The notes below the pieces were generated by a model that did not search any database, was not told the DNA's origin, and worked only from the letters and a program-made list of their open reading frames with translations. Below are positions 38,631-44,178 of a stretch of DNA of 64,000 bases, in pieces. The DNA is from Butyrivibrio sp. Its GTDB lineage: Bacteria > Bacillota > Clostridia > Lachnospirales > Lachnospiraceae. Where the stretch lies: positions 1 through 64,000 of the forward strand of contig SVFZ01000082.1 in NCBI GenBank assembly GCA_015056585.1. The letters run 5' to 3'. A program made the translations under genes and the position numbers. Position 1 is the first letter of the stretch. Every line of letters starts with the position of its first letter.

Positions 38631-38657
38631 TTAGCACTCGACTGTATCGAGTGCTAA
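38631..38657 (-). promoter_or_regulatory. CIRCE operator (HrcA binding site)
   Basis: Perfect TTAGCACTC-N9-GAGTGCTAA upstream of hrcA. Confidence 0.97.
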
Positions 38658-38701: not shown

Positions 38702-38735
38702 CCATGCAATTGTAAAATATCTATGAAACAATAAA

Positions 38736-38759
38736 GGAGCCCGCAAATATGCGGGCTCC
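38736..38759 (-). terminator. Intrinsic terminator of cohesin-like gene
   Basis: GGAGCCCGCA-TATT-TGCGGGCTCC followed by TTTATTG on the minus strand. Confidence 0.9.
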
Positions 38760-38789
38760 CGTCGATTATGATTTAAAAGATATTTGGAA

Positions 38790-39596
38790 TCAGCCAAACC
38801 ATCCAAAGAACTTTCTTATTGTGCCTGATACAGGCTCTGAAGGCTCAGAAACAATTCTTTCATTACCAACCTTCTGATAAGAAGCTACCTTATAATAGTA
38901 CTTGGTATTGTTCTTTACATAAAGATCAAGGTTAAATGTTAAAGTAGTCTCCCAAAGTTCCTTGTAATTGTCGTCTGTCCCTTCGCTACGGTATAAAATG
39001 TAACCGTCTGCGTTAGGATCACCCTTCCAGCTAAGGTTGAAGGAAATGAGTCCCTGACCAAGTCTAAGCCTTGTAGGAGTCTTAGGAAGCGGTCTTCCGA
39101 CATTAACAGTATCCTCTAATGTCACATCTGAAATAACACTTTGGTCTTCATTATTAATACCAAATATTGTTGTCTTTACAGTTGTGTTCAGATTCTTTGC
39201 AGCACTTACCTTAAAGTTCATGGTAAGCACTCTTCCGCTTACACTCTTTGGCCTGTCATTGACAAATGCATATGCGATTCCTGTGCTATCGCCATTGCTG
39301 TAGTTTCTGTTGATATCAAACTCGCTAAAATGAAACCCTTCAGATTCACTTACAAGTGTGAGCACTTCCGGATCATATTCTACTGCAATTCTGCCGTCTG
39401 TCGCTTTTACCTTATCAAGACTGAGCTTATAGGTTACCTTCTGGTTCTTTCCGGTTCCTGATACAGTAACTGTTGTATGAGCAGGTGCATTATCTGCTGC
39501 TAAGGCCTTTGGCGCCGGTGCTGCGACAAAAAGGGCAAGCGCTGTCAATCCGAGAACGAATGCTCTTTTCATATTCTTAATCATCATTCTCTCCTC
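38790..39596 (-). CDS. Secreted cohesin-like / fibronectin type III protein
   Basis: Signal peptide (MKRAFVLGLTALALFVAAPAPKALA); GRIAVEYDPEVLTLVSESEG...GRVLTMNFKVSAAKN cohesin-like; FN3 ADGYILYRSEGTDDNYKELWETT; start approximate, overlaps subtilase stop. Confidence 0.7.
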   Translation of the reverse strand, partial: EERMMIKNMKRAFVLGLTALALFVAAPAPKALAADNAPAHTTVTVSGTGKNQKVTYKLSLDKVKATDGRIAVEYDPEVLTLVSESEGFHFSEFDINRNYSNGDSTGIAYAFVNDRPKSVSGRVLTMNFKVSAAKNLNTTVKTTIFGINNEDQSVISDVTLEDTVNVGRPLPKTPTRLRLGQGLISFNLSWKGDPNADGYILYRSEGTDDNYKELWETTLTFNLDLYVKNNTKYYYKVASYQKVGNERIVSEPSEPVSGTIRKFFGWFG

Positions 39597-42500
39597 CTGA
39601 TACGTCTTCTGCTGGTGCATCAGAAGATGCCTCCCGGCCGGCTTCTGAATTATCTGCACTGCTGTCATTTGCAGCTTCGTCTTCTGATCCCGCTTCAGAG
39701 CTTGCTTCTGATGCAGCTTCTGAAGCTTCTGCTGCTGTCTCGTCCTGAGACTTCTTATCTTCTTTAACTTCTTCTGTTGCTTCTTTTACTTCCTCTGTTA
39801 CTTCTTCAGTAGCAGCATCCTTTTCAGCTTCTACAGCTTCCACTGAGCTCTTTTCTGCTGAAGCATCTTCTGCAGTTTCGTCAGATTCTTTTTTCTCATC
39901 ATCCTTTACTGCACTCTTTTTATCATCCTTCAAAACGCTCTTCTTATCATCTTTTACAGCCTGCTCTTCATCGGCTCCGGTCTTGCTGTTTGAAGGTCTG
40001 CCGACAACAGTAACATTTACCTGAGCTGAAAGGTTGTTGCCCTTCTTATCGGTAGCAAGTGTAGTAACAGTAATAACTGCCGTTCCTTCCTTCTTACCAA
40101 GAACAGTTCCGGACTGTGAAACTGCAGCAACATCAGGATCTGAAGACTCCCAAGCTACAGCATCATAGCCTTCTGCAAGCCACTTAGGAGATACAGTAGC
40201 CTTGATCTGTGCTGTTCTTCCAACTGTAACTTCAAGTTCCTGCTTATCAACTGTTATATCAGTAACAAACTTAGTATCAGCATGTCCTGTGTTGTTGAAG
40301 CGATATACTGAAGCATTTCCTGCATAGTCGAATACTTCTACATAGAATACATCCTCAGGAGCATCAATTGTTACAACAGCATCCTGATCCTTTGTCTCCT
40401 GGTTAACAGCATATCTTCCAAGGATAGTGCTCTTATCGTTAGCAATTACAAGTACTGCAGCTGTGTATCTGTTGTCGTATACTGTGATGTCATATTTGCC
40501 TTCTGCTGCCTTTGCTGCATCTGCGATAACCGGCTTAGTGTTATCAATAGCCATAGGTGTTGTGAGATACAGGCCCTTACCATCAAGAGTCTTTGGATCT
40601 TCTACATTATCGTAATAGCTTGGAACTGCCTCAAGTGTGATCTCTACTTCAGTTCCATCCTCAAGAGGATTGCCCTTGGCATCTGTTCCTGCCCAGTTAA
40701 GATCCTGCCACTGAATGTAGTTTTTCCACTGTCCTTCATATACGAAGGAAGCGTAGTTCTCATATTCAACGTTCTCAAAGTATACCTCACCGGTATTCTT
40801 ATCTGAAATTGTTATGATTACTCTGTTAGCATTTCTGATAAGTGAATAGTACTGTGATCCGAGTACTGTGCCATTCAAAGAACTGATGGCATTTCTGTCC
40901 TCAATATACTTTGCATCATCTGCAAACAGGTTTGGAATGAAATAGTTCTCATTTGCTGAACCCATAGGATAAACTGAGAGGAAGTTAGTCTCACTAAGTC
41001 CTACATAAGTCTGTCCATCGTAGTTCGGGTCATGTACATACTGCATGAAGTCAAACGGCTCATACATTGAAGAATCCATCCAGCTTCCGTAGAATGCAAG
41101 GAAAGGAATTGAAAGATCAACATTACCCTTTGCATAAATGAATCCATCTACATACATACCGTTTTCGAAGCCTGAGAGATAATTTCTGTCGTCTTCTGAA
41201 AGGTTTACATTAACATCAATTGTTGTAACGTCATTTACTCTTACAACTGTAAGTCCAAGGTTGGCAACATCTGCTGCTCCCCTTATCTGCTTGCCAAAAA
41301 GATATACATCCTTTGTATTAACAACTCCGTCCTTGTTAAGATCGAAGTATTCATCATGCTCGTCAACAATAGGAAGCTCAACTGAGCCGTTCACTGCTGA
41401 AAGGAACTGGCTTCTGTCGCTGAGATCTACTGCGCCGTCGTTGTTAAGGTCATAAACAAGTGCTGTATCACTTGCAGAAAGAGATACTGAAGGATTGAGC
41501 TGATGAGATGTTCCGTAGAAATACTTAAATCCATCCTGCTCATAGAGCTGTTCTGTTAATACTGAAGAATCAAGAACAAAGAACTGCTCTTTATCTGTAA
41601 GGTTGTGGATATCAAATGAGAAGCTGTAATTACCTGATCTTGAAGGATCATCTCCCAGTGTGATCTTAACCTTACCGTCGTTTCCTTCCTTGCCGCCTAC
41701 AAGAATATAAGCAGGAGATGTTACTGCATTATAAACATTTGCAAGGCCAGCGCCCTGTGATCTTGGTGAATACTCAAGTCCCTCAGGATCATTGTCCTCA
41801 CGAAGGGGAATAGCTGTACTCATCAAAAGAGTCTGTGCAAGAGTTCTTACAGAGAGACCTTCTTTATTTGCAAGGTCATTCTCGCGGATGTACTGCTCAA
41901 CAAGCGCACTCTGTCCTGCAATTGAAGGAGCTGCCATGGAAGTACCCGATTCAACACCGTAAGTGCCATTGTTAAGTGTTGAGTAGATGTTTCCACCCGG
42001 GGCTGTGATTTCAGGCTTAAGGTCAAGAGTTCCGGGAACACCGTAAGATGAGAATGTGCTCATTGTATATCCGTCAGGAACATCTGTCTTAAGACCAACC
42101 TTGGCAGAAACAGTAACTGTACCTTCATATGTTGTCTCTGAAGTCTGCTCAGCACCTGCAAGAATGCTCTGAGCATCAGCTAAGGTAATTGATACACATG
42201 GAATCGTTGCTGTACTGTCAGCAAGAAGCATTCCGATTGTACCGGGCTGGTTATTGTAAACAACGCAAGCTACTGCTCCGGCAGCTTCAGCATTCTGGTG
42301 CTTTTCAACGAATGTGATAGATCCACGTGATACCATAACGATCTTGCCCTGAACATCAACACCTTCGTAATCATCGGCAAGTCCAAGACCGTCTATAAGT
42401 ACGAAAGGATACTGTGTTCCGTTGCCGTCTGCTGAAGTATCAAGTGTCTTGAACAGATCTGCATGGCTCTCGCTTCCATCTGAATAGAAGATTTTCTTTC

Positions 42501-44178
42501 CATCCTCTGTTTCGAAGCAGTTACCTGCAATACCGCTGTTTACTGCACTGGCTACTGTAAGTGCATTACGATATGATCCCGGTGAACCAACTGTATCCTG
42601 GTTAACGTCAGCACTTAAGTTAACACCATATGTTGATTCATCAGACCAGCGTCCTGAGTTACCTGCAGAAATAGATACAACTGTGCTTGTTCCCTGAAGC
42701 TTATCAAACACATCATTGATATATGTCTCAGAATCTGATGAGTATCCTGCTGCAGATGAGCCAAGACTTAAGTTAACAACATCGCACTTAAGGAGGATCG
42801 CGTCCTCAATAGCTGCCATGTAGTCATCACTGTAAGCGCCGCCGCCCTTACCGAATACCTTCATTGTAAGGAGCTGAGCATCAGGAGCGATACCTACTAC
42901 TCCTGTCTCCTGTCTTGAAAATCCGCTTTCTGCTGCGCTGTTAGGAACATAGTAGTTGGCTGTTGCAATACCTGATACGTGTGTACCATGGTCGCCCTGG
43001 TCATCATTGTCGTGAGTTATTTCAAGATCCTTGTCTACATAGTTAAATGCAAAAGGAATCTTTTCATTAAGATAAAGCTGATCAGCAGATACCCCGCCAT
43101 TTACCTGTGCAACATTAAGATTCGGCAAAACTGAAGCAATTTCCTCTGCCGTAAGAAGATTATAGTCTGATACAGACTTTCCTGCTGCCTGTGCAGTCTC
43201 ATTCAAATGAGCATCAAAAGCTGCTGCATCGAATGATGGATGGTCTGAATCGATACCTGTATCAATAACAGCTATTCTTGTTCCTGCTCCTGTATAACCG
43301 TTAGCCCATGTAGAATAACTGCCTACCATATCTCCGGAAGTAATTGTCATCGGCTCAGCTGTTTCCTGAGGAACATATTTCTGAGCAACATAAACAGCTG
43401 CAACTCCGTCGACATTAACGATATTGTCGATGTCCTTATAAGCAACATCAGCAGATACCGCATTTGTGATGATTGAAAGATTATAATTAACATCAAGCTG
43501 CTGACCGTCAAGAGCTTCTGCTGAAATCTTTTCAACTGTCTCTTCCTGCTCTGCAATGATATTCTCAGACAGATTCATAGCAGCGCTGTTATCAGCAAGG
43601 TTCTCTGTATCGTAACCCTGATCAAGGACACTGTCGCCCTCCATTACGATGATGACACGAGTCTGCTCGTCAGGATCCTTCTCCTCGATCGGGACATCAG
43701 TTTCCAGAGCATCTACAGCAGTAACGGGCGCCTCAAGTCCCTCTTCCTGCGGATCTACTTCTTCAAACAAAGGAAGATTTTCTTCTGTTTTCTCTTCTGA
43801 AGTTTCCTCAGAGCTCTCTTCAGTTTTTTCTACTGATGCTGTTTCCTTCTCCTCTGACTGTACTTCCTCCTGAAGTTGTTCCGGATGCGTCTCTTTATCA
43901 GCCGCATTTTCCTCTTCCGCTTTTTCACTGACTACTTCTGATTTACCGCTCTTATTTTCTGTCTCTTTGACAGATTCATCTGCTTTTTCAGAAACTTTAT
44001 CTTCAGTTGTTTCCTTGGTAGCTTCAGCAGTTTCTTTTGTTTCAGCTTCTTCTACATTAGCAGAAAGATTTGCAGTACTATCCCCGGCAGTTGCCGCAGC
44101 AGTGATTGATGGTGAAAGAGCCAGTGTGGCACTTAAGATCACTGCGAGAGCCTTCGCGGAACCCACATTTCTTTTCAT
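39577..44178 (-). CDS. Secreted S8 subtilisin-like protease with PA, dockerin-like and Ig-like (BIG2-type) domains
   Basis: Catalytic motifs IAVIDTGIDSDHPSF, HGTHVSGIA, SGTSMAAPSIAGQ; dockerin-like YDLNNDGAVDLSDRSQFL...YFDLNKDGVVNTKDVYLFGKQI; BIG2-like VTVGRTAQIKATVSP; acidic N- and C-terminal low-complexity regions. Confidence 0.93.
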   Translation of the reverse strand: MKRNVGSAKALAVILSATLALSPSITAAATAGDSTANLSANVEEAETKETAEATKETTEDKVSEKADESVKETENKSGKSEVVSEKAEEENAADKETHPEQLQEEVQSEEKETASVEKTEESSEETSEEKTEENLPLFEEVDPQEEGLEAPVTAVDALETDVPIEEKDPDEQTRVIIVMEGDSVLDQGYDTENLADNSAAMNLSENIIAEQEETVEKISAEALDGQQLDVNYNLSIITNAVSADVAYKDIDNIVNVDGVAAVYVAQKYVPQETAEPMTITSGDMVGSYSTWANGYTGAGTRIAVIDTGIDSDHPSFDAAAFDAHLNETAQAAGKSVSDYNLLTAEEIASVLPNLNVAQVNGGVSADQLYLNEKIPFAFNYVDKDLEITHDNDDQGDHGTHVSGIATANYYVPNSAAESGFSRQETGVVGIAPDAQLLTMKVFGKGGGAYSDDYMAAIEDAILLKCDVVNLSLGSSAAGYSSDSETYINDVFDKLQGTSTVVSISAGNSGRWSDESTYGVNLSADVNQDTVGSPGSYRNALTVASAVNSGIAGNCFETEDGKKIFYSDGSESHADLFKTLDTSADGNGTQYPFVLIDGLGLADDYEGVDVQGKIVMVSRGSITFVEKHQNAEAAGAVACVVYNNQPGTIGMLLADSTATIPCVSITLADAQSILAGAEQTSETTYEGTVTVSAKVGLKTDVPDGYTMSTFSSYGVPGTLDLKPEITAPGGNIYSTLNNGTYGVESGTSMAAPSIAGQSALVEQYIRENDLANKEGLSVRTLAQTLLMSTAIPLREDNDPEGLEYSPRSQGAGLANVYNAVTSPAYILVGGKEGNDGKVKITLGDDPSRSGNYSFSFDIHNLTDKEQFFVLDSSVLTEQLYEQDGFKYFYGTSHQLNPSVSLSASDTALVYDLNNDGAVDLSDRSQFLSAVNGSVELPIVDEHDEYFDLNKDGVVNTKDVYLFGKQIRGAADVANLGLTVVRVNDVTTIDVNVNLSEDDRNYLSGFENGMYVDGFIYAKGNVDLSIPFLAFYGSWMDSSMYEPFDFMQYVHDPNYDGQTYVGLSETNFLSVYPMGSANENYFIPNLFADDAKYIEDRNAISSLNGTVLGSQYYSLIRNANRVIITISDKNTGEVYFENVEYENYASFVYEGQWKNYIQWQDLNWAGTDAKGNPLEDGTEVEITLEAVPSYYDNVEDPKTLDGKGLYLTTPMAIDNTKPVIADAAKAAEGKYDITVYDNRYTAAVLVIANDKSTILGRYAVNQETKDQDAVVTIDAPEDVFYVEVFDYAGNASVYRFNNTGHADTKFVTDITVDKQELEVTVGRTAQIKATVSPKWLAEGYDAVAWESSDPDVAAVSQSGTVLGKKEGTAVITVTTLATDKKGNNLSAQVNVTVVGRPSNSKTGADEEQAVKDDKKSVLKDDKKSAVKDDEKKESDETAEDASAEKSSVEAVEAEKDAATEEVTEEVKEATEEVKEDKKSQDETAAEASEAASEASSEAGSEDEAANDSSADNSEAGREASSDAPAEDVSGGENDD

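Follow-up and report, generated by a model that had tools for sequence, protein, structure and literature searches.

Protease gene and its overlapping neighbor

The window is a 64,000-nt stretch of Butyrivibrio sp. DNA (contig SVFZ01000082.1, positions 1 to 64,000). Two overlapping genes on its minus strand encode a large secreted protease and a small secreted cohesin-FN3 protein. The protease gene has the following features.

39577..44178, minus strand: secreted S8 cell-envelope-type protease with nested dockerin (ORF, 1533 aa; Pfam S8, PA, Dockerin_1, and Big_2)
41746..43290, minus strand: Peptidase_S8 domain, residues 297 to 811 (Pfam, 160.3 bits)
42163..42408, minus strand: PA insert inside Peptidase_S8, residues 591 to 672 (Pfam, 63.1 bits)
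40054..40266, minus strand: Big_2 Ig-like domain, residues 1305 to 1375 (Pfam, 41.3 bits)
39580..40050, minus strand: acidic low-complexity C-terminal tail (sequence and hydropathy)

The catalytic motifs AVIDTGID (D306), GDHGTHVSG (H397), and GTSMAAP (S747) are all present in the sequence. The closest solved structures are those of streptococcal C5a peptidases and SpyCEP, with best matches at an E value of 4e-52. With its S8 triad, PA insert, Fn3_5 domain, and C5a-peptidase-like fold, the protein has the domain architecture and fold of cell-envelope proteinases. It scores 225.8 bits against the LPXTG-anchored subfamily NF040553 of NCBIfam, which is under the cut-off of 1400. A search of its C terminus by sequence and hydropathy found no LPXTG motif, SLH domain, or transmembrane (TM) segment, and the original prediction was correct that neither protein of the window carries an LPXTG or SLH anchor.

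The features of the second gene are as follows.

38790..39587, minus strand: secreted cohesin-FN3 protein, 265 aa, with signal peptide (ORF; start supported by orthologues)
39099..39464, minus strand: cohesin domain (Pfam Cohesin; fold match to 2w1n)
38826..39041 (approximate limits), minus strand: FN3 domain (profile match to FN3 structures, E value of 6e-9; strands of the model)
38793..38816, minus strand: short hydrophobic C-terminal tail, RKFFGWFG (alignment)
39593..39598, minus strand: AGGAGG, the Shine-Dalgarno sequence for cohesin translation, within the final codons of the protease (..GGENDD) (sequence)
38735..38760, minus strand: intrinsic terminator with an 11-bp stem that closes the two-gene unit (sequence)

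The encoded protein consists of a cohesin and an FN3 domain only and is noncatalytic. The match to Pfam Cohesin (PF00963) is borderline, at 24.0 bits on the ORF and 25.9 bits in the genome scan against a cut-off of 24.1. The predicted structure is all-beta, with a mean pLDDT of 82, and its top match among 350,542 PDB chains is the cohesin-FN3 double module of Clostridium perfringens (2w1n; E value of 1.2e-7). The hinge between the two domains keeps whole-chain TM-scores for this match low, and tandem FN3 structures match the protein too. The RKFFGWFG tail recurs in a KKFFGLFG-like form in the Butyrivibrio and Pseudobutyrivibrio cohesin-FN3 orthologues. The Pfam and FN3 matches bear out the earlier description of the neighbor as a secreted, cohesin-like protein with an FN3 domain.

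AGGAGG lies five bases ahead of the ATG at 39587, and the protease stop codon is at 39577 to 39579, so that the two genes overlap by 11 nt. The cohesin gene does start inside the last codons of the protease, as had been proposed. Its listed ORF start at 39668, which would give a 92-nt overlap, is an artifact, because AGGAGG at 39593 to 39598 points to the ATG at 39587; the relatives also favor this start, since the orthologues begin MMIKN.KRAF at the matching position. Many Butyrivibrio and Pseudobutyrivibrio orthologues share the layout in which the Shine-Dalgarno sequence lies in the last protease codons. The conserved C terminus of the protease, GGENDD (39580 to 39598), coincides with this Shine-Dalgarno sequence. 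The conservation of GGENDD may therefore be due to signals for translation and not to what the protein does. Directly past the terminator, a CIRCE-like inverted repeat (TTAGCACTC...GAGTGCTAA) occupies positions 38631 to 38657, upstream of hrcA-grpE-dnaK.

Nested dockerin

The dockerin and the domain that hosts it are located as follows.

40999..41676 (approximate limits), minus strand: Fn3_5-like beta-sandwich hosting the nested dockerin (alignment, relative L082, AlphaFold2 model)
41296..41454, minus strand: dockerin type I module, residues 909 to 961 (Pfam Dockerin_1)
41416..41451, minus strand: calcium loop 1, DLNNDGAVDLSD (sequence)
41308..41343, minus strand: calcium loop 2, DLNKDGVVNTKD, with T955 invariant (sequence; conservation)

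Dockerin_1 (PF00404) scores 23.4 bits on the protease and 29.3 bits in the genome-wide scan (cut-off, 22.9), and orthologues of the protease score up to 42 bits. The module has two intact, duplicated calcium loops whose starts are 36 residues apart, followed by helices in the AlphaFold2 model. Dockerin_1 above its cut-off and both loops intact agree with the earlier report of type I dockerin-like EF-hand repeats in mid-protease; with the cohesin results, matches and folds are present on both sides of the pair.

The first half of the Fn3_5 domain precedes the dockerin, and the conserved second half, FENGMYVDGFIY, follows it; the FENGMYVDGFIY half aligns to the fn3_5 domain of C5a peptidases. 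In the relative L082, Pfam detects fn3_5 with the dockerin between its halves. The AlphaFold2 model of the protease (pTM 0.78) places the dockerin helices at a pLDDT of about 88 to 95, with sandwich strands on both flanks. The alignment and the model indicate that the dockerin is an insertion within one beta-sandwich domain, which refines the earlier "mid-protein" placement.

The calcium-loop positions D910, D921, D946, and D957 are invariant across 39 split-system proteases, those whose cohesin is encoded by a separate gene. Repeat 2 is more constrained than repeat 1 in these proteins, with T955 invariant and V958 nearly invariant, and this stronger constraint suggests that the dockerin has a single binding face. 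Through an EF-hand-like stretch, PDB entries 8x39 and 8x3a ("Serine protease", a solved chain of 151 aa) match the region of the dockerin. They may be a solved piece of a dockerin-bearing protease, but the alignment register differed between queries.

Co-occurrence within the genome and in Butyrivibrio

A whole-genome Pfam scan found a single dockerin and a single cohesin over the cut-offs, and these are in the two adjacent genes described here. The source genome has no dockerin-bearing glycoside hydrolase. A cellulosome is ruled out, because the genome lacks a scaffoldin and has only this one cohesin and one dockerin.

We found the protease in 15 of 61 Butyrivibrio genomes, and in all 15 a cohesin gene overlaps or abuts the protease gene. 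No match to a cohesin without the protease was found among the 61 genomes. The proposed check on conservation of the gene pair in related genomes thus shows strict co-occurrence. The hypergeometric probability of this pattern is 1.4e-14 on the assumption of independent genomes, which these are not. The pair lies in at least five gene neighborhoods across Butyrivibrio, grouped as follows.

hrcA-grpE-dnaK side: the window, G213, G218, G262, G263, and G281
GDP-sugar genes: G208 and G274
Further neighborhoods: G204, G215/G232, and G224

The pair therefore moves as a unit, and this diversity of neighborhoods is, in our reading, a stronger point than the co-occurrence probability. In one genome (G213, locus L093), both genes are intact, yet the dockerin and the cohesin each fall under Pfam detection, as if the two had drifted jointly.

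Split and fused forms in other genomes

The nested region was scanned once over the genomes of 84,980 species, which yielded 79 loci. A cohesin gene lies directly downstream in 41 of these (split loci), which belong to Butyrivibrio, Pseudobutyrivibrio, other Lachnospiraceae, and a few further Clostridia. In another 17, mainly from Oscillospiraceae and related MAGs, the cohesin is fused in the same polypeptide; 15 fusions were found by a custom profile, with the cohesin near the C terminus, and two by Pfam (L209 and L216). Thirteen of the 79 loci are truncated and one is at a contig end. Among the remaining 65 assessable loci, a cohesin is present in 58 and marginal in three (L204, L207, and L223), and four proteases (L191, L198, L199, and L210) have no detectable cohesin, neighboring or fused.

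Because split partners formed the training set of the custom cohesin profile, its matches to them are partly by construction; the fused cases lie outside that set. In a Pfam check of 25 split-type loci, the adjacent-frame cohesin was independently detected in 21. At L195, the order seen by Pfam is protease part, fused cohesin, and three SLH domains. As a control, we used 13 Fn3_5 subtilases without a dockerin from seven genera, and none has an adjacent or fused cohesin, one of the 13 loci (L253) being a short contig with little flank.

A second subtilase occurs in genus G130 (L256:1370-9125). Its dockerin halves are inserted in the S8 catalytic domain, with the calcium loops about 70 aa apart, and a cohesin-FIVAR-TM gene lies downstream. 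The pairing recurs here with the dockerin inserted at another site.

In a mirror-tree comparison, cohesin distances track dockerin distances, with a partial r of 0.58 after correction for S8 distance. The two flanking Fn3_5 segments do likewise (partial r of 0.61 and 0.51). The correlation is therefore not dockerin-specific, and we rejected it as specific evidence of binding.

Many other Lachnospiraceae genera (L083, L084, L085, L086, L088, L128, and L129) carry a different, tail-to-head dockerin/cohesin pair. A protein with a strong C-terminal dockerin and a Cadherin-like domain has a cohesin-Cadherin-like protein immediately after it, and the dockerin protein of L084 also has an SH3 domain and a glucosaminidase-like match. 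This pair is more widespread than the protease-cohesin pair.

Anchors and the function of the pair

None of the split-system proteases carries a C-terminal anchor or TM segment. Sortase-type TGD-TM tails are present on 12 split partners (L173, L175 to L182, L190, L219, and L082). The cohesin partner of L148 has choline-binding repeats (PF19127, 97.9 bits), and other split partners end in FN3. The C-terminal module of the partner is interchangeable: FN3, choline-binding, FIVAR-TM, TM, or none. The fused proteins terminate in SLH (L195) or sortase-type tails. A recognizable anchor is absent from the partner in the window, from most Butyrivibrio and Pseudobutyrivibrio partners, and from L186 to L189. 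In Butyrivibrio, choline-binding repeats are believed to attach enzymes to the wall (PMC2914790). B. proteoclasticus is reported to have cell-bound subtilisin activity (PMC2914790).

We suggest that the two proteins probably form a dedicated cohesin-dockerin pair, separate from any cellulosome, through which a cell-envelope protease is held on a subunit that acts as receptor or anchor. In this scenario, a dockerin that binds calcium would project as a loop from the Fn3_5 domain of the secreted S8 protease. Outside the cell, the cotranslated cohesin protein would form a 1:1 complex with this dockerin and hold the protease on a noncatalytic subunit. Where that subunit is anchored, a noncovalent, calcium-dependent lock would retain the protease at the surface. 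In other lineages, the socket and the anchor are fused directly to the protease. This sequence-based reading supports the original proposal of a two-component extracellular protease complex; counterpoints are the window Pfam scores, which are close to the cut-offs, the partners without a recognizable anchor, and the few nested-dockerin proteases in which no cohesin was detected.

Recognizable partner tails are cell-surface anchors in most lineages that have them, so the usual role would be surface retention. The cis fusions and the anchored partners go further than the original proposal and indicate that, in most cases, the cohesin protein serves as an anchor or receptor subunit. On the simplest reading, the cohesin goes with the anchor, the dockerin goes with the enzyme, and the lock would join both. 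Anchoring is least certain in the window itself, where the partner ends in FN3 and a short hydrophobic tail; an anchor function of FN3 and RKFFGWFG is suggested by their position only.

A second explanation is that the cohesin acts as a clasp and not as a tether, closing on the dockerin and bracing the protease after self-cleavage or linker nicking so that activity is kept. The trans form would then be a gene-split version of the cis form. The 17 relatives that hold dockerin and cohesin in one chain with their own SLH or sortase-type anchor favor this explanation, because a chain that is already anchored does not need tethering. SpyCEP, one of the nearest structural relatives of the protease, is autoprocessed to fragments that remain associated, and the domain that hosts the dockerin adjoins the catalytic domain. 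However, a pure clasp needs neither the sortase-type tails of at least 12 split partners nor the choline-binding repeats of another, and the cis pairs could bind between molecules as well. We consider the clasp possible, at clearly less than even odds.

The cohesin protein may instead be a folding chaperone, an inhibitor, or a substrate adaptor, which would bind the dockerin transiently or present substrate through FN3. The translational overlap fits a stoichiometric partner of this kind, and the interchangeable C-terminal module also favors this explanation. However, the anchors on many partners imply a permanent surface role, and Pfam found no inhibitor or chaperone domain on the cohesin protein, which makes this explanation unlikely.

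It is very improbable that the insert is only a calcium-stabilized surface loop and the neighbor a generic secreted beta-sandwich, with no mutual binding: EF-hand pairs may be purely structural, the window scores are near the cut-offs, and four insert-bearing proteases lack a detected cohesin, but the genus-wide exclusive co-occurrence (15 genomes with both, 0 with one), the repeated cis fusion across loci, the 0 of 13 cohesins beside dockerin-free Fn3_5 subtilases, and the second G130 protease with its own downstream cohesin-FIVAR partner all speak against it.

In the fused forms, docking would have to serve a nontethering role, because the protease is already covalently anchored; this counts against the preferred reading of a lock between enzyme and anchor subunit. 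More boldly, the loci may represent an undescribed "plug and socket" family of surface proteases, in which the dockerin sits in Fn3_5, the private cohesin is either separate and anchored or fused, the two forms have interconverted, and the fused form makes an intramolecular or head-to-tail clasp. We give this bolder reading slightly less than an even chance of being right.

Comparison with known systems

Cell-envelope proteinases such as ScpA/ScpB, SpyCEP, and the lactocepins share the S8-PA-Fn3_5 architecture and are anchored by their own LPXTG motif; to our knowledge, none has a dockerin. In the proteases described here, the place of the built-in anchor would be taken by the insert together with a receptor on another protein.

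The nearest precedent is found in the non-cellulosomal complexes of C. perfringens (X82 cohesins and FIVAR-dockerin; NagJ cohesin-FN3, 2w1n), for which pairwise cohesin-dockerin binding is described (PMC12997984). As in that species, the genes of the window encode a single cohesin and a single dockerin on separate secreted proteins without a scaffoldin, and the G130 partner also has FIVAR modules. However, the C. perfringens partners are both glycoside hydrolases, whereas here a protease is paired with a noncatalytic protein, the dockerin is in mid-protease, and every pair is private, encoded side by side, and in some cases fused.

Cellulosomes, amylosomes, and mucinolysomes likewise use type I dockerin and cohesin modules with calcium loops and signal peptides, and mucinolysomes include peptidases that bear a dockerin (PMC12997984). 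Unlike these assemblies, the source genome has no multicohesin scaffoldin to go with its one cohesin and one dockerin. ScaO-type scaffoldins of Acetivibrio and C. alkalicellulosi have an S8-peptidase-like domain and a C-terminal Coh-Doc (PMC11557425). They resemble the present system in bringing S8-like, FN3, cohesin, and dockerin modules together in one protein. They differ in that they occur in cellulosome-forming species, where the Coh-Doc is thought to join the scaffold (PMC11557425). The dockerin of the present proteases instead lies within Fn3_5, and their cohesin is either distal in the chain or encoded by another gene.

Among 5.39 million open-access papers, only one mentions dockerin, cohesin, and subtilase together, and its subject is the ScaO-type scaffoldins (PMC11557425); the combination of cell envelope proteinase and dockerin was not found. 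A genome paper states that a Butyrivibrio strain lacks cohesins as well as polysaccharide enzymes that bear a dockerin (PMC2914790). In the Hungate survey, Clostridiales are grouped by how many dockerins and cohesins they have, and one of each is not among the groups (PMC6118326). Judged against the open-access literature, the nested plug, the dedicated neighbor, and the alternation of split and fused forms appear to be new, whereas pairwise binding has its precedent in C. perfringens.

Implications

Cohesin and dockerin are among the tightest protein pairs known and are regarded mainly as the glue of cellulosomes. Here, a single protease would have them as a lock of its own, in bacteria without cellulosomes. 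If the fused form does work as a clasp, this would be a use of cohesin and dockerin not known from cellulosomes. Studies of binding specificity and protein engineering could draw on dozens of pairs from these loci, matched by nature and either split or fused. The loci also offer a testable account of how a large protease may be kept on the cells of some rumen and gut Clostridia without a built-in anchor.
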